64,000 nucleotides of DNA from contig NZ_JAKCFB010000004.1 of NCBI RefSeq assembly GCF_024198235.1, positions 310,001-374,000 of the forward strand, written 5' to 3'. Under the pieces are notes generated by a model that saw only the letters and a list, made by a program, of their open reading frames with translations, searched no databases and was not told where the DNA came from. A program made the translations under genes and the position numbers. Of the stretch, positions 35,818 to 43,819 are shown in pieces; within the stretch, counting starts at the first letter, position 1; every line of letters starts with the position of its first letter. The DNA is from Myxococcus dinghuensis (GTDB lineage Bacteria; Myxococcota; Myxococcia; Myxococcales; Myxococcaceae).

Positions 35818-35842
35818 AATCCCGGCGAAGGGAAATCCCGGC
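35817..35842. repeat. Two 10-base direct repeats upstream of the sigma gene
   Basis: AAATCCCGGC occurs at 35817-35826 and 35833-35842, 16 bases start to start, between the putative ECF promoter and the sigma factor start. This could be an operator or part of a leader. Confidence 0.5.
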
Positions 35843-35895
35843 CTCCGTTCTGGACGCACGGAGGGGGCGCTCCACCGGTGGAACGACATGAGAAG

Positions 35896-36471
35896 ATGGG
35901 TGCGAGGATTCGCGCCACGATGGACGACGGGTTGCACCGCCAGTTCGAGGCATTCGCGCGCGCGCGGCGACCGGGCCTGCTGAGGCTTGCCCGGCGGCTG
36001 TGCGCGGGTGGCGGCGTGGATCCGGAGGACCTGGTGCAGGAGACCCTCGAGCGGGCGTTCCGCCATTTCGACCGGCTGGTGGCGGAGAACGCGGGCGCGG
36101 TGAGCGTGTGGTTGAGCACGACGTTGAGCAACCGGTTCCTGGACCACTGCCGGCGACGGCGCACGGAGGTGCTGGGGGCGCCCGCCCTGCGCGTGGTGCA
36201 GCCCCAGGAGGTGTCCGGGGAACCGGCGCCGCTGGAGCAGTGGACGCGGGTGAGCCGGGAGGACTTCCTCCACGCCATCGAGCAGCTCAAGCCCCCGCAC
36301 CTGCGGGAGGCGTACCGGCTGCACGTGGCGGGACTGCGATATCGGGCCATCGCGCAGCAGTTGGACGCGCCCGAGGGGACCGTCGGGCGATGGCTGAGCG
36401 AGGCGCGGCAGGCCCTCCGGGGGTTGCTGACCCCCGACGCCGCCTCGAGTGAAGGCAGGGCCAGACCATGA
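35896..36471 (+). CDS. ECF-type RNA polymerase sigma factor
   Basis: A 191-residue sigma-70 family protein of the ECF group. Region 2 includes LLRLARRLCAGGGVDPEDLVQETLERAFRHFDR with the DLVQETLER motif, and region 4 has the helix-turn-helix YRAIAQQLDAPEGTVGRWLSEARQALRG. Regions 1.1 and 3 are missing, as in ECFs. The final codons overlap the start of the CHAT/anti-sigma gene by four bases (ATGA), so production is coupled one to one with its likely regulator. Start codons at 35896 (ATG), 35920 (ATG, with GAGG 12 bases upstream) and an earlier GTG (35878) are all possible. It probably recognises its own promoter. Confidence 0.92.
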   Translation: MGARIRATMDDGLHRQFEAFARARRPGLLRLARRLCAGGGVDPEDLVQETLERAFRHFDRLVAENAGAVSVWLSTTLSNRFLDHCRRRRTEVLGAPALRVVQPQEVSGEPAPLEQWTRVSREDFLHAIEQLKPPHLREAYRLHVAGLRYRAIAQQLDAPEGTVGRWLSEARQALRGLLTPDAASSEGRARP

Positions 36472-39407
36472 GCGAGCTGTGCGACAGACTGGAGTCCTTC
36501 ATCGACGGCGAGCTGGCGCCGGTGGACGCGGAGAACTTCCGCCACCACCTGACCCGGTGCCACGCGTGCGAGACACGCATGAAGGAGCTGCTCGCCCTGG
36601 AGCTGCTCGCCGACGACGCGCTCAACGCCGCCGCCGTCGAACCGGCCTTCGTCGCGCCGCCGCCCTCGCCCTTCAAGCGCCGCAGGACCTGGATGATGGT
36701 GGTGCCGCTGGCGCTGGCCGCGGGCCTGGCGGCATGGGTCCTGGTGACGCGGCCCGCTTCGTCGACGGAGGCCTCCGAGCTCTGGCTGGGCCAGTCCCGG
36801 GGGCGCGTGCTGGAGGCCCGCCTGACACACCCGGGCGCCGACACGCACCGCCCCTACCAGGTCATGCGCAGCGGCGGCGACAAGCCCCGGGCGCTGTCCC
36901 TGCGCGAGCTGGCGAAGCTCGAGGAGGCCGGGGACGACCGGGGCATCGCCTCCGCCTATCTGCTGCGCGGGGACACGACGCAGGCGGGGGCGTTCCTGGA
37001 CAAGCTGCCGGATTCGCCGGACCAGGACTCGGACCGCGCGGCGCTCGCGTTGCAGAAGGGCGCCCCCGAAGAGGCGCTGGCGCTGGCGGACAAGGCCCTC
37101 AAGGCGCGGCCCGGCCATCCGCAGGCCCTGTGGAACCGGGCCCTGGCGCTCGAGACGCTGGGCCTGTCGCTCCAGGCCGCGGAGGCCTTCGACCAGGTGG
37201 CCGCGCAGAAGGAGCCGGGCTGGAGCGAGGAGGCCGCCGAGCGCGCCGGGGAGATGCGGCGCCAGGAGGAGGAGCGGCGCAAGGGCTGGAAGGGCACGAA
37301 GGAGGACTGTGACGGGATGGTGTCCGGTGGCGCGGTGCTCGCGTCCCGGCAGGTGGAGACCTGGCCGGGCCTGTCGCGCCTGTGCCTCTACGACGCCCTG
37401 CGCACGGCGCCCTCCGCCCAACGCGTACAGGCGCTGCGCCCGCTCGCCCTCCAGTTGGACCGCATCGACGGAGGCACGCACCTGGTGGACGCCGTGGACC
37501 GCGCCTCCCGGGCGGACTTCGCCGCGCGGCGGCCGCTCTCGGAGGCGTACCTCCGACTCACGCGGGGGGCGTTGAAACCTCCGGACCTCGCCCTCCTCAT
37601 CTCGAAGCTCCGCGACGCCCGGCAAGAGGACCTCCTGCTGGGCGCGCTGCTTTTCACCCCCGACGCGCGCCTGGAAGAGGCCACCTACCGCCAGCTCGCC
37701 CAGGCGACCCGGGACCCCTGGTTCGCCATGTTGGCCGAGGAGCGGGAGTCCCGCGCGGACCTCCAGCGCGGCCAGCCCTACCGGGCCCGGGAGCGACTGA
37801 CGGCGGCGCTCAAGGCGCACTGTGGTCCGGAGCGCGCCTTCAACTACCGCTGCGTCGAGCTGCAGCGGAACCTGTCCCTCGTGGAGCTGCAGTTGCACCA
37901 CCCCGTCGAGGCGCGCGCGCACGGCCTGGCGGCGCTGGAGCGGGCCCGCGCGGGCAACGAGTGGACCAAGGAGCTGCGGCTCATCCAGGAGCTGGGGCAG
38001 GTGGCCCGCGCCCACTCGGACCTGTCGCTGACGCGCGCATATCTGGAGGAGACGCTGCTGCGAATCCCGGAGCGCTGCCAGGACCACGAGCTGGCGTACA
38101 CGAACCTGGCGCTGGCGCACTACCTGGCCTTCGACTTCGCCGGAGCGCGGGAGCAGTTGGACCGCGCCGCGCGCTGTGGCCAGCCGCCCTCGCTGGCGCG
38201 CGCCTTCGTCATGGCGGACCTGGCGCACACCGAGGCCCGGCGCGACGACGACGCGGCCCTGCTGACGCGGGGTCTGGAGGAACTGCGCGCGTCCGCCTCG
38301 CTGGCGGCCGGAGAGGGCCCCATGCTGCGGCACATCGAGGGCCGCTTCGTCATCGAGCAGGACCGCGCCCGGGGGCAGGCGCTGCTCCGCCAGTCCATCG
38401 CCGAGGCCACGCCGCTGCTGGGCACGGACGTCGACTCGCGCAAGGCGCGCGTCTACAGCTTCACGTCGCTCATCCTGGACGCCGCGCGCCACGGCGAGCA
38501 CGAGCGGGCGCTCGCGTTGTTCGCGGAGGAGCGCGGCCTGCCCGTCCCCGGGCGCTGCGTGCTGGGCGTCACGGTGGACGACGAGCGCACGGCCCTGGTC
38601 GCGCGCGACGCGGGCGGACGGTTGCTGGGGTACTACGCGTCGGATCGCCGTCGAACGCTCACGAGCGTGGAGGGGCTGGTCCCCGCGCGCTTCGAGGACG
38701 CGCTGCGCGGCTGCGCCCAGGTCGACGTGCTGGCCCGGCCTCCGGTGCTCGGACAAGCGGGGTTGCTGGCCCCGGACATCGCGTGGACCTACCGGGTGAG
38801 TCCCCACGCCGAGCCCGGCTCGCCGCGTCCGGAGCGGAGGCTGGTGGTCGCCGACGTGAACACGCCCGTGGCCCTGCGGCTGCCCTCGCTGCGCGCCTGG
38901 CGCGGCGCGGACACCGAGGCGTCCCAGGTGTCGACGCTCAAGGGCGCGGCGGCCACGCCCACCCACGTGCTGGAGGCGATGCGCGACGCGACGGAGGTGC
39001 AGATCCACGCGCACGGCGTCATCGACCCGAGCGTGGCGGATGGCTCGCTGCTGGTGCTCTCCCCGGAGGAGGAGGACGGCAACTACGCGCTGACCGCCAC
39101 CGCCGTGCAGGCGCAGCGGCTGGCCGGCCACCCCGTGGTGTTGCTGGCCGCGTGCCACGCGGCCCACAGCGCGCGCTACTTCCACGAGACGTTCGGCCTG
39201 CCCGTGGCCTTCGTCGACGCGGGCGCGCGCGCCGTCCTCGCCGCCACCCAGGAGATTCCCGACGCGGAGGCCTCTGAGTTCTTCGAGCCCGTCCTCGCAC
39301 GCATCCGCGCGGGACTGCCCGCGGCCCTCGCCCTGCGCGACGCGCGTCAGGACTGGCTGCGGCGTCCGGGCGGCACCTGGGTGAGCCAGGTGCTGCTCTT
39401 CGAGTAG
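36468..39407 (+). CDS. Anti-sigma zinc finger / TPR-like / CHAT protease fusion protein
   Basis: A 979-residue protein with four parts. Residues 1-50 are a zinc-binding anti-sigma (ZAS) domain: Cys5, then HHLTRCHAC with His27, Cys31 and Cys34 (H-x3-C-x2-C). KRRRTW leads into one transmembrane helix (about 74-94). Residues about 120-720 are helical and TPR-like (ALAHYLAFDFAGAREQL). The C-terminus is a CHAT (caspase-HetF) peptidase: QIHAHG with catalytic His849 and LLAACHAAH with catalytic Cys896, 47 residues later. The N-terminus starts inside the end of the ECF gene (ATGA). By topology the CHAT part faces the periplasm. Likely role: it holds the sigma factor at the membrane until its own protease activity or a signal releases it. 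A lipoprotein gene follows in the operon. Confidence 0.92.
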   Translation: MSELCDRLESFIDGELAPVDAENFRHHLTRCHACETRMKELLALELLADDALNAAAVEPAFVAPPPSPFKRRRTWMMVVPLALAAGLAAWVLVTRPASSTEASELWLGQSRGRVLEARLTHPGADTHRPYQVMRSGGDKPRALSLRELAKLEEAGDDRGIASAYLLRGDTTQAGAFLDKLPDSPDQDSDRAALALQKGAPEEALALADKALKARPGHPQALWNRALALETLGLSLQAAEAFDQVAAQKEPGWSEEAAERAGEMRRQEEERRKGWKGTKEDCDGMVSGGAVLASRQVETWPGLSRLCLYDALRTAPSAQRVQALRPLALQLDRIDGGTHLVDAVDRASRADFAARRPLSEAYLRLTRGALKPPDLALLISKLRDARQEDLLLGALLFTPDARLEEATYRQLAQATRDPWFAMLAEERESRADLQRGQPYRARERLTAALKAHCGPERAFNYRCVELQRNLSLVELQLHHPVEARAHGLAALERARAGNEWTKELRLIQELGQVARAHSDLSLTRAYLEETLLRIPERCQDHELAYTNLALAHYLAFDFAGAREQLDRAARCGQPPSLARAFVMADLAHTEARRDDDAALLTRGLEELRASASLAAGEGPMLRHIEGRFVIEQDRARGQALLRQSIAEATPLLGTDVDSRKARVYSFTSLILDAARHGEHERALALFAEERGLPVPGRCVLGVTVDDERTALVARDAGGRLLGYYASDRRRTLTSVEGLVPARFEDALRGCAQVDVLARPPVLGQAGLLAPDIAWTYRVSPHAEPGSPRPERRLVVADVNTPVALRLPSLRAWRGADTEASQVSTLKGAAATPTHVLEAMRDATEVQIHAHGVIDPSVADGSLLVLSPEEEDGNYALTATAVQAQRLAGHPVVLLAACHAAHSARYFHETFGLPVAFVDAGARAVLAATQEIPDAEASEFFEPVLARIRAGLPAALALRDARQDWLRRPGGTWVSQVLLFE

Positions 39408-39436: not shown

Positions 39437-39997
39437 ATGAAGAAATGTCTCCTGCTGCTTCCCGTGTTGCTGGGCCTCGTGGCCTGTGGACACACCAACA
39501 GGGTCCCCACGACGAAGGAAATCCAGCGCAAGGCCCCTCCAGGGGCGCTCGTCCACATCATCGCGCGTGATCGGGTGAACCCCCAGCGGGCCACCCTCTA
39601 CACGGTGGACGTGAGCCGCGACGAAATCGTGGCCCAGACGAACGACCCGGCGGAAATCGCGCAGGCCGAGGCGGAGAGCGGCTCCACCACCGCCCAGGCG
39701 TCCGGACACCACGCCAGCGCCACCTCCGGACAATTCCCCGGCGGACAGACGGTGGGCACGCTGACCATCCAGACCACCTGCGAGCCCAAGAACGAGCGGG
39801 AGGGCTGCCAGAACGTGGCGAACCTCACCAACGGCGACCCGCACGGGACGTCGGGCGGTGGCGGTGACCCCACGGGCCACGAGGAGTTCGTGAGGCGCAT
39901 CCGTCGGCTGGCCTCGCTGGTGTACTGGTCCACGCTGGAGGTCCAGATTCCCACGGCGACCAACGCGGCGATGCGTGGGGACGCCGCCCGCCAGTAG
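39437..39997 (+). CDS. Small lipoprotein of the sigma/CHAT operon
   Basis: A 186-residue lipoprotein. MKKCLLLLPVLLGLVAC is the signal with the lipobox LVAC (Cys17). The rest is hydrophilic, with a short TTKEIQRKAPPGALVHIIARD strand region, a Gly/Ser/His-rich flexible stretch (about 80-100), two cysteines (CEPKNEREGC) and a C-terminal helix. I do not recognise a family. It lies 29 bases after the CHAT gene and before a strong hairpin (40017-40055), so it should be in the same operon. It could be a substrate, sensor or inhibitor of the CHAT protein, since both would meet in the periplasm. No obvious ribosome binding site is present. Confidence 0.75.
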   Translation: MKKCLLLLPVLLGLVACGHTNRVPTTKEIQRKAPPGALVHIIARDRVNPQRATLYTVDVSRDEIVAQTNDPAEIAQAEAESGSTTAQASGHHASATSGQFPGGQTVGTLTIQTTCEPKNEREGCQNVANLTNGDPHGTSGGGGDPTGHEEFVRRIRRLASLVYWSTLEVQIPTATNAAMRGDAARQ

Positions 39998-40062: not shown

Positions 40063-43000
40063 TCAGGGCGAGGGCTTGTCCGCGTCGTCGGGGGTGGCGA
40101 GCCCGGAGAGTGTCTCCACGTACCGGGCGGCCACCCGCAGGAAGCGGGCGCCCCGGACCCCCGTGAGGTACTGGCGCTTCATGGCGCGGGTGGCGCCCAC
40201 GTAGAACATCGCGCGGCGGATGCGCTCGTTCTCCCGCGCGTTGCGCTCGCGGGCCCCGGCCATCCACTGCTCCACCGTGTCCAGCGCGTCCAGGCCGGCG
40301 AAGAAGACGATGGGGCACTCGTGCCCCTTGCAGGAGAACACCGTGGTGGCGCGCACGTGGTCCACGCCGCTGACGCGGAAGTCCGTCACGTCCCGGCCAC
40401 CCTTGCCGCCGTAGGCCTGCGCGGGCACGCCGGCGCGGTCCAGCGCCTGCGTGTACTGCGAGGGCATGACGGGGGCCACCACGAGGATGTCGCCGGGGTG
40501 CACGCCCTCCTCGCGGATGAGGCGGGCCACCTCCTTCGCCACCTGTCGGGCCTCGCTGGCGCCGGAGGCGAAGCCGCGCACCTGGGGCAACACGCCGCCG
40601 CGCTCCGTGGACTGGACGCGGTAGAGCCCCTCCAGCGTCTCCTCGGGCAGCCACAGGAGTCCCTCGCGCGCCAGCTCCCCGGCCTTCATGTACTCGCGCA
40701 TGCCGGGCTCCGTGGCGCCATGGACGCGCAGCGGGTCCAGCACCACGTTGAAGGCCACGTCGAGGATGTCGCGCGTGGCGCGGAACGTCTCCTTCAGGAT
40801 GCGGGTGCGCCCCCGGAAGGACAGCCCCTCCGGCAGTTGCTCCTTCAGCGAGTCGATGGGCACCTGGCCATAGACGTTCTGCGAGTCGTCCATGAAGAGC
40901 TGGAGGCAGCGCACCTCCTTCCCGTCCGACGCGAGGTGCGGCCGCACCAGCCCGTGGAGCATGGCCAGCGCGCGGGCGTCCATGTCCTGCGCCTCGTCGA
41001 CGAAGACGGCGTCGAAGCTGCCGGGCTCCACCCGCCGCAACGCGCCCACGTGCTTCACGGTGACGCGCGCGCGCAGGGGCCGGACCTGGAGCGTCCCCGC
41101 GCGTTGCGCGAGCGCCTCCACCAGAAGCTTCTCCACCAGCGGGGCCAGCGCCCGGTTGAAGAAGGACACGAGCACCTGGGTGTCCTCGTGCTCCAGCAGA
41201 TAGCGCGCCACCCAGTGCGCCAGCACGAACGTCTTCCCGCTGCCCGCCACGCCGCGCACCAGGTGGTGGCCGTCGTCGAAGCGCCGCTCGAAGAGGGACA
41301 CCTGCTCCTGGGTGAAGAGCGGGCGCGCCGGGCGGGCGCTCTCGATTTCACCGCCGAGCGTGGCCGGCGCGGCGGGCGGGGGCGGCGGCGGCGCGGGCGG
41401 CTGCTTGGGAACCGGCAACGGCTCCAGGCGCGGCGGAGAGCCGGGCTGCACGCGCAGGCGGGGCAGCAGCGACAGGAAGCGCTGGGGGATGGTGGCGCCC
41501 CGGGCCTCGTCGCGCGACGCCAGCACCAGCAGGTAGTCGCGCGCGCGGCTGGCGGCCACGTTGAGCATGGGCACCAGCGTGTGGGGCGGGAAGGGTCTCC
41601 CGCCGGCCACCGTGTCGACGAGCACGACGTCGTACTGCGTGCCCTGCTGCCGGTGGATGGTGGAGGCGCTGAAGACGTCGCCGCGCAGCCCCGCGGACGA
41701 GCCCAGCCGACGCAGGAGCGCGGCCTGCGCGCGGTAGGGCGTGACACACAGCACGCTGAGCCCGGAGCGCACCGCCTCGCGCGCCAGGGACACGGCCAGC
41801 TCCGCGGACAGCTCGCGCTGGTAGCCCGAGCCCGTCTCCCCCCGCCCATGGGTGAGCCGGCGCGCGTCGCGGCTCAGGCCGTCGAGCACCACCCAGCCGG
41901 CGCGCGAGGACGCGAAGGCCGCCACGGGCGCGGGCTTCTGCGCGCGGGCCTTGACGACCTCGCCGTCCTCCAGCGCGCCGCCGTAGCAGAAGTGGCTCAC
42001 CACGCGCGCGATGTCCGGGTGCATGCGGTGCTGGGTGCGCAAGAGCAGGACGTCCGGGCGCGCGGAGGCCTTCACCGCGTCCTCCAGATGCGACAGGCCG
42101 CTGGCGCGCAGCCACTTCTGCGTGTTCCGTCCCGCGCCCTCCGCGGCGCGGCTCACCGGGCCGATCTGCTTGGGGTCGCCGGCGAGCGTCACGCGCTCGG
42201 CCAGTGGCGCCAGGAGCGCGGTCGCCGCGCGCGTCACCATGCCGGCCTCGTCCACCACGAGCCGCGCGAAGGTCTGCTTGCCCTCCAGCTCCGACACGAG
42301 GCGCAGGGCCCGGTGCACGGTGAGCACCATCAGCGGACAGTCGCCCTTCTCCGCCTCCTTGAGCGTGGGGTCCTTCATCTTCCCGCGCAGGCCACGAAGC
42401 TCCGCCTGGAGCTTCGCCAGCTCGTGCGCGGGGCCCCCCCGGACACGCTGGAGGTACAGCTCCCGCTCGCGCTCCTCGATGGACGCGCGCAGCTTGCCGC
42501 CCTGGGTGTCCTCCAGCATGACGGTGGGCAGCTTCGCCAACGCGTCGCTCGCGCCCGTGCCGCCCCGGAAGATGCTCCGGCCCAGCGGACGCAGGGGGAT
42601 GGGCGCGCGCTCCAGCAGGGCGCTGACGCGCATCACCAGCTCGTCCGCGGCCCGGTTGGTGGGCGCCACCGCGAGGATGCGCTCGCCGGGGTACGCGCGC
42701 AGGGCGCGGGCGATGAGGTCGGCGACCGCCGTCGTCTTGCCCGTGCCGGGAGGCCCCCAGATACAGCCCCACGGCTGGGCCCACAGCCGGTCCGCGGGGA
42801 GCAGCTCCGCGTCCTGGGCGCGCGCGACGACGGACGGAGGCTCTCCACAGGCGCGGTCCATGGCCACCGCGAGCGCGGGCTGACGCTCCTCGTAGGCCGA
42901 GGCCGCCGCGCACAGCGCCTCCGCGAAGTCGTAGGGCCGGTAGCACCAACGCTCGGCGGACAGGGCGCGGCGGTCCACGTCGTCGCCGTGCTCAGGGGCG

Positions 43001-43632
43001 GCGAAGACGCGCCCGGACTCGAAGTCGAGGTGGACGACGTCGCCGCCGAAGACACACTCCTCGCCGAGGAACCCCAGCAGCGAGCCACCGGACCAGTCCG
43101 GGTCCGCCGCGGGGACGGGCACGAGGGAGAGCACCCCGGGGCCCTGGAGGCTGACCTGGCGCACGTCCTGGAGCAGCTTCGCGCGGTACTGGCTGCGCTC
43201 GGCCAGCAGCGCGTCGCGCAGGTCCTCCGGCAGGTACGCGGGCGGGGTCCAGGCCTCGCGCCGCTTGCCGGTCGCCACGGCCGCCTGCATGACCTCGCGC
43301 TGCGACGCCGTGACGTCCGAGGTCGCGGCCACATCCCTCGCCGGGGCCTCGTCGCTCGACGGCGCCGCCCCCCGCGCCACCGCCGCGCGCGCGGGCCCCG
43401 AGGCCTTCCCCCCCGCTCGGGCCAGCGCCAGCAGCGGATTGGGCGAGCGCGGGATGTCGTCCGAGGTGTCCCGGGGCGGCAGGTCCTGCTCGGCCTCGGG
43501 CGCCGGGCGGACACTCGCGGGGGGTGCGGAGGGAGGGGCGTCGTCGTACTCGACGTGAAGCTCGCGGACGGAGGCGCCCTCCGGGGGCGGAGCGCGCCCA
43601 TCGGAGACCTCGTTGTGCGTCCGGTGCGTCAT
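40063..43632 (-). CDS. Tandem SF1 helicase fusion (Upf1-like plus UvrD-like)
   Basis: A 1189-residue protein with two separate SF1 motor cores. The N-terminal ~260 residues are poorly conserved, with an Ala/Pro/Asp-rich start. The first core is of the Upf1/Dna2 type: Walker A WGPPGTGKTTAVADLIARAL (about 290), Walker B VVDEAG, ALAGDPKQ, RTQHRMHP, and a late VVLVDTVAG and NVAASRARDYLLVL. A Pro-rich linker (VPKQPPAPPPPPPAAPA) joins a UvrD-like core: Walker A GVAGSGKT (about 792), VFVDEAQDMDA, and FSCKGHECPIVFFAG and FYVGATRAMKRQYL. Both ATP sites look intact. It probably unwinds nucleic acid in repair or RNA metabolism. It is divergent from YgiQ. The start at 43632 is the first ATG with a conserved-looking region behind it and is somewhat uncertain. 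Confidence 0.85.
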   Translation of the reverse strand: MTHRTHNEVSDGRAPPPEGASVRELHVEYDDAPPSAPPASVRPAPEAEQDLPPRDTSDDIPRSPNPLLALARAGGKASGPARAAVARGAAPSSDEAPARDVAATSDVTASQREVMQAAVATGKRREAWTPPAYLPEDLRDALLAERSQYRAKLLQDVRQVSLQGPGVLSLVPVPAADPDWSGGSLLGFLGEECVFGGDVVHLDFESGRVFAAPEHGDDVDRRALSAERWCYRPYDFAEALCAAASAYEERQPALAVAMDRACGEPPSVVARAQDAELLPADRLWAQPWGCIWGPPGTGKTTAVADLIARALRAYPGERILAVAPTNRAADELVMRVSALLERAPIPLRPLGRSIFRGGTGASDALAKLPTVMLEDTQGGKLRASIEERERELYLQRVRGGPAHELAKLQAELRGLRGKMKDPTLKEAEKGDCPLMVLTVHRALRLVSELEGKQTFARLVVDEAGMVTRAATALLAPLAERVTLAGDPKQIGPVSRAAEGAGRNTQKWLRASGLSHLEDAVKASARPDVLLLRTQHRMHPDIARVVSHFCYGGALEDGEVVKARAQKPAPVAAFASSRAGWVVLDGLSRDARRLTHGRGETGSGYQRELSAELAVSLAREAVRSGLSVLCVTPYRAQAALLRRLGSSAGLRGDVFSASTIHRQQGTQYDVVLVDTVAGGRPFPPHTLVPMLNVAASRARDYLLVLASRDEARGATIPQRFLSLLPRLRVQPGSPPRLEPLPVPKQPPAPPPPPPAAPATLGGEIESARPARPLFTQEQVSLFERRFDDGHHLVRGVAGSGKTFVLAHWVARYLLEHEDTQVLVSFFNRALAPLVEKLLVEALAQRAGTLQVRPLRARVTVKHVGALRRVEPGSFDAVFVDEAQDMDARALAMLHGLVRPHLASDGKEVRCLQLFMDDSQNVYGQVPIDSLKEQLPEGLSFRGRTRILKETFRATRDILDVAFNVVLDPLRVHGATEPGMREYMKAGELAREGLLWLPEETLEGLYRVQSTERGGVLPQVRGFASGASEARQVAKEVARLIREEGVHPGDILVVAPVMPSQYTQALDRAGVPAQAYGGKGGRDVTDFRVSGVDHVRATTVFSCKGHECPIVFFAGLDALDTVEQWMAGARERNARENERIRRAMFYVGATRAMKRQYLTGVRGARFLRVAARYVETLSGLATPDDADKPSP

Positions 43633-43803
43633 GGCGGCGAGCCCGGGTCCCTTCGGTCCCTCGCCGGGCGCGGGGGCGCGAAGGTAGGGGACGCATGGAT
43701 CCACGTCAATGCGCGCCCGGAGTGAGCCGACCGACAGGACCCGACACACCGGGGACGCCCGCCCTGTCGCCTTCCCACCGGGAAGGTAGGTGTCCAACCC
43801 CGG

Positions 43804-43819
43804 CCCGGTGTACACCGGG
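43804..43819. promoter_or_regulatory. Perfect 16-base palindrome CCCGGTGTACACCGGG
   Basis: It lies in the 228-base region between the divergent helicase and YgiQ genes, 57 bases before the YgiQ GTG and 172 before the helicase start. All 16 bases are symmetric, making it a good candidate repressor operator. No regulator gene is adjacent. It does not match the myxobacterial LexA box known to me. Confidence 0.5.

Follow-up and report, generated by a model that had tools for sequence, protein, structure and literature searches.

The window, i.e., the whole 64,000-nt stretch of Myxococcus dinghuensis DNA analyzed here, encodes a putative sigma/anti-sigma switch in which a transmembrane anti-sigma factor carries its own CHAT domain. 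By homology and tree position, this sigma/anti-sigma pair is an uncharacterised paralogue of DdvS/DdvA from Myxococcus xanthus. The sigma, anti-sigma-CHAT, and lipoprotein genes follow one another on the forward strand, and comparison of the orthologous loci shows that they form a conserved, predicted three-gene operon (27/27). The corresponding features are as follows (positions within the window):

35826..35849, + strand: promoter-like motif CGAAGRGA-N12-CGTT, candidate autoregulatory ECF promoter
35896..36471, + strand: ECF sigma factor gene, 191 aa, with Pfam and NCBIfam matches
36468..39407, + strand: gene for a transmembrane anti-sigma factor with TPR-CHAT, DdvA family, 979 aa
36480..36569, + strand: zinc anti-sigma (ZAS) domain, residues 5–34, zf-HC2, with ligands C5, H27, C31, and C34
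36693..36749, + strand: transmembrane helix, residues about 76–94, from hydrophobicity and charge bias
36900..38537, + strand: TPR-like helical solenoid, residues about 145–690, from AF2 and TPR_16; predicted periplasmic, with three Cys pairs
38556..39404, + strand: CHAT domain, residues about 697–979, from Pfam CHAT and alignments, with Cys pair 697/749
39012..39014, + strand: catalytic-type His849 codon, 49/49 members
39153..39155, + strand: catalytic-type Cys896 codon, 49/49 members
39437..39997, + strand: small lipoprotein gene, third in the operon, 186 aa, with lipobox LVAC

The first gene product matched Pfam Sigma70_r2 (E 2e-13) and Sigma70_r4_2 (E 3e-9) and scored above the TIGR02937 (ECF) cut-off, with an in-frame ATG at 35920 as a possible alternative start. 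Its orthologues were 73–92% identical and occupied the equivalent position in orthologous loci. An ATGA overlap joins the sigma stop to the anti-sigma-CHAT start (ATG 36468), as the first-pass annotation of this DNA had stated. The lipoprotein gene begins 26–36 nt past the anti-sigma-CHAT stop in 27/27 orthologous loci, and its product is fast-evolving; the lipobox Cys and one additional Cys pair are invariant across these 27 loci. Most other paralogues are without an adjacent lipoprotein gene. Convergent to the operon, a gene at 40063–43815 (− strand) encodes a protein of 1250 aa that carries one AAA_11/12-like and one UvrD-like helicase unit, and is kept at the same place in orthologous loci (79–86%).

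Within the anti-sigma-CHAT protein, Pfam placed zf-HC2 at residues 5–34 (24.9 bits vs. a cut-off of 22.2) and CHAT at residues 818–966 (64.2 bits vs. a cut-off of 24), and a TPR_16 match at residues 190–247 fell just under its cut-off. The AF2 model displayed a helical solenoid over residues ~145–690 with pLDDT mostly 80–93; for the CHAT active-site region, pLDDT was about 30–50 in both the whole protein and the domain alone, and the model of CHAT alone was left out of the fold search because its confidence was too low. The first-pass annotation had described a complete zinc anti-sigma domain (C5/H27/C31/C34) joined on one polypeptide to a transmembrane helix, a TPR-like region, and a CHAT domain with intact His849 and Cys896. 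Each of these elements was recovered, including zf-HC2 above its cut-off, the helix, TPR, and CHAT from Pfam, hydrophobicity, and AF2, and all named residues at the positions it had given. Conservation of the dyad in homologues, which had been set as a test beforehand, also held: His849 and Cys896 were invariant in 49/49 family members at 35–45% overall identity, ZAS-less ones included. H27, C31, and C34 were kept wherever the zinc domain was present among the aligned members, and in one paralogue pair (L044:6418-9849 and L053:6933-10424) the first zinc ligand C5 is changed to His (HHCC). At the level of sequence, the CHAT His-Cys dyad is intact; a competent active-site geometry and proteolysis are putative.

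Searches against the PDB linked this protein to DdvA over its full length. The profile search returned a full-length match to DdvA 8rot_B/8rw5 (E 2e-180), the single-sequence search a colinear one with about 35% identity (E 2.4e-131), and the ZAS domain matched 8rlz (‘Antisigma factor DdvA’, E 1.4e-6). In the fold search, the AF2 model, the TPR part of which is good, aligned to 8rw5 with a structural Z of 36.5 over 651 residues; the DdvA matches (8rot/8rw5) covered about 650 residues with Z 36.5 and 30.3, vs. 15.6 for the next unrelated row. Cryo-EM structures exist for M. xanthus DdvA (8rot, 8rw5), in which the protein is titled transmembrane anti-sigma factor. Along their full length, the two proteins share the order ZAS, transmembrane helix, TPR, and CHAT; both have the dyad His and Cys, pair with an ECF sigma, and come from Myxococcaceae. 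The 2024 DdvA abstract is said to describe a periplasmic TPR-CHAT of the separase/craspase type in a dimer, with an incomplete His-Cys site, and reportedly raised autoproteolysis in trans before RseP cleavage as a possibility. Since DdvA is published and homologous over its full length, a system of this form was already known, and the earlier claim that no such system had been characterised is contradicted by M. xanthus DdvS/DdvA (8rot, 8rw5, 8rlz).

However, the M. dinghuensis protein is not a DdvA orthologue. This candidate assignment was rejected because a maximum-likelihood tree placed DdvA, although on a long branch, in a different clade (100/100) from the 27-row clade that holds the M. 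dinghuensis protein (100/100), consistent with an identity of about 35%; the long branch leaves the exact neighbours of DdvA unsure, while the two-clade split is firm. Unlike DdvA, the M. dinghuensis protein has a lipoprotein gene in its operon and extra Cys pairs, 281/306 and 537/570, that are missing in DdvA. PMC12288465, which cites the DdvA structure paper, presents DdvS as the M. xanthus ECF sigma factor controlling an antiphage CBASS/CRISPR island, whereas no such link was found at the M. dinghuensis operon. PADLOC gave no defence match to any of the three operon proteins, and for the convergent helicase it returned partial helicase-domain matches only.

The predicted topology places the ZAS and CHAT domains on opposite sides of the membrane. 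Residues 76–94 have a hydrophobicity of 2.17, with no other stretch above 1.35, and the helix is preceded by KRRR, with four Lys/Arg on its N side vs. one on its C side; the same N-side excess was seen in 43/47 members, with 4 ties. Past the helix lie nine Cys, i.e., the catalytic one and eight that act as four pairs. C281/C306 was found as both in 27 members, neither in 21, and mixed in 0, while pairs 452/462, 537/570, and 697/749 gave 46/1/1, 41/5/2, and 48/0/0 (both/neither/mixed), although these counts come largely from close orthologues and do not represent independent events. Pairs were also kept or lost jointly between paralogues, and ZAS-less members begin with a hydrophobic signal or anchor. 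From the positive-inside charge, the co-conserved Cys pairs, and the N-terminal signal or anchor of ZAS-less members, we infer with good support that TPR-CHAT is periplasmic, disulfide-bonded, and across the membrane from ZAS.

The anti-sigma domain is consistently paired with a sigma factor: in each of the 41 full-length ZAS members, an ECF sigma gene lies ≤30 nt upstream. Across 18 paralogue pairs, sigma and ZAS identities were correlated (r 0.81, permutation p 2e-4), which speaks for co-inheritance rather than binding, since sigma and ZAS share a phylogeny. Binding of the paired sigma factor by ZAS is a well-supported prediction; inhibition of the sigma factor and dimer formation by the anti-sigma-CHAT protein are putative, and the r of 0.81 is no more than consistent with such binding.

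We next consider how widely this architecture is distributed. The first-pass annotation had proposed a search across myxobacteria, and the architecture indeed recurs, with full-length orthologues (59–84% identity) in 25/26 other Myxococcus genomes searched and conserved neighbours (lipoprotein 27/27). An M. xanthus orthologue (L069 type) is 61% identical. Together with the invariant dyad, this recurrence argues that the architecture is not due to chance. Most genomes of the genus contain about 4–14 family members, and 67/195 phylum genomes sampled have a match, all but one in Myxococcaceae and the remaining one in the same order; no relative was found in the viral contigs searched. One locus from an assembly titled Comamonas sp. 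KCTC 72670 (L072, BNCN01000001.1) is of Myxococcus type and nests securely within the genus in the tree, so that this assembly is likely mislabelled or contaminated. In L042:6410-14166 and L050:5274-17657, two sigma/anti-sigma-CHAT pairs stand near each other, which suggests expansion via local duplication. A paralogue match at G020:C5:948987-951701, spanning query residues 1–884 with one in-frame TGA, is possibly a pseudogene.

Some members depart from the fused form. Four stand-alone TPR-CHAT paralogues (L047:6619-9408, L052, L057:6098-8890, and L058:6457-9228) have an N-terminal hydrophobic signal or anchor and an intact dyad but lack ZAS, and no sigma gene was found near them within the stretches examined. 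At two further loci, from two species, a ZAS-TM-TPR anti-sigma protein of the 530-aa class without CHAT lies beside an ECF sigma gene (L046:7502-9516 and L051:3796-5792), and an exported ZAS-less TPR-CHAT protein is encoded nearby (L046:10994-13741 and L051:7298-10048), with an opposite-strand Cupin_8/JmjC gene between the two. Based on these CHAT-less anti-sigma proteins, CHAT is not required in cis by every member.

Upstream of the operon, the motif CGAAGRGA-N12-CGTT, which resembles an ECF promoter, was found 42–47 nt ahead of the sigma start in 26/26 orthologous loci (1/5200 shuffles), the same loci from which it had been derived. Across six genomes, one to three copies were detected in each, and only the operon copy was recognised as common to all. 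When 2 mismatches were allowed, a whole-genome search yielded 25 matches vs. 7 in the control, with the operon copy alone exact, and for this reason no regulon is claimed. The distribution of the motif suggests autoregulation and a narrow regulon, although the motif may be over-strict.

Taking these observations together, the reading that we favour, with moderate confidence, is that of a DdvA-family anti-sigma factor from which sigma would be released by a periplasmic CHAT cut followed by RseP-type cleavage, leading to transcription of its own operon. The N-terminal ZAS would hold sigma in the cytoplasm, and the single helix would link it to a periplasmic TPR-CHAT that may sense an envelope signal, perhaps with the operon lipoprotein. 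On signal, the CHAT His-Cys site would cut the periplasmic stalk of the same chain or of a partner subunit, after which a site-2 protease of the RseP type would cleave inside the membrane and the freed sigma would transcribe its own operon. Both cuts, the triggering signal, and autoregulation are thus putative, as is the protease gating of the switch. A periplasmic CHAT would indeed need a periplasmic cut and then intramembrane proteolysis, and the genome encodes two RseP-family proteins above cut-off; RseP being nearly universal, their presence is weak support for two-step cleavage. As in RseA/RsiW-type anti-sigma factors, a cytoplasmic sigma-binding domain, one transmembrane helix, and a periplasmic signal-receiving part are combined, but in those systems the site-1 protease is another protein, whereas the M. 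dinghuensis anti-sigma factor has a protease-type domain built in. The main rival, possible though rather unlikely in our view, is that TPR-CHAT is instead a non-proteolytic scaffold for ligand binding or dimerisation. In this case, the signal would alter its shape or open the stalk to an ordinary site-1 protease of the housekeeping kind, with a structural or vestigial role for the His-Cys pair. The DdvA site is reportedly incomplete, CHAT-less anti-sigma proteins exist beside their sigma (L046, L051), and in RseA/DegS-type systems, site-1 cleavage falls to a separate protease (cited in PMC10028731), all of which would fit a scaffold; however, the invariance of H849 and C896 in 49/49 members at 35–45% identity fits retained catalysis better than decay.

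Two other readings appear less probable. The CHAT domain could mainly cut another periplasmic substrate, e.g., the operon lipoprotein, with the sigma arm only tuning operon expression to protease occupancy, and the fast-evolving lipoprotein encoded directly after it in 27/27 orthologous loci, along with the exported ZAS-less members with no sigma nearby, are compatible with this. Yet the lipoprotein is tied to CHAT by gene order only and is absent beside most other paralogues, and we consider this improbable. We give even less credence, to the point of near dismissal, to the model drawn from the first-pass annotation, in which the anti-sigma factor would be directly cut by the craspase-like protease to which it is fused, in the cytosol. 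In its favour are the domain fusion, the intact dyad, and the cutting of a sigma inhibitor by Csx29 in type III-E CRISPR (PMC10028731). Like the craspase system (Csx29, Csx30, CASP-sigma), the M. dinghuensis protein belongs to the TPR-CHAT fold family, has a His-Cys dyad, and is putatively linked to freeing an ECF sigma from inhibition. In craspase, however, protease and inhibitor are separate and the protease is RNA-activated on Cas7-11, whereas here they are fused in one membrane-spanning protein with a CHAT domain predicted to be periplasmic. The charge bias and co-conserved Cys pairs behind that prediction, the hydrophobic signal or anchor retained by ZAS-less members, and the title of the solved relative as a transmembrane anti-sigma factor all argue against a cytosolic protease, and the predicted topology thus revises the analogy with craspase: with CHAT and ZAS on opposite sides of the membrane, CHAT would not cut ZAS directly as Csx29 cuts Csx30. 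PDB sequence searches returned no Csx29 match to the anti-sigma-CHAT protein, and Csx29 was not among the Foldseek rows listed, an absence that we do not count as evidence. Membership in craspase was rejected because the M. dinghuensis protein is one polypeptide and is predicted to be periplasmic, the argument on the Cas7-11 complex resting on this topology.

Extending the favoured periplasmic CHAT switch to the whole family is more speculative, and we hold it as an unlikely though specific proposal that the paralogues are parallel switches, each an anti-sigma factor with its own site-1 protease, lipoprotein-gated in the M. dinghuensis branch, while at L046/L051 the exported TPR-CHAT would cut the CHAT-less anti-sigma in trans. 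Where DdvA provides a single worked case, the searches performed here reveal a large paralogous sigma/anti-sigma-CHAT family that is almost wholly Myxococcaceae. New elements include the three-gene operon, the promoter motif, the ZAS/sigma linkage (41/41), the ZAS-less exported paralogues, and the split anti-sigma/CHAT loci. For DdvA, the role of a built-in site-1 protease was reportedly left open in the 2024 paper. The ZAS-less and split natural versions would allow direct tests of whether a caspase-type fold serves membrane signalling as an in-built site-1 protease, and, together with the lipoprotein gene and the family view, may take such tests beyond the single case of DdvA.
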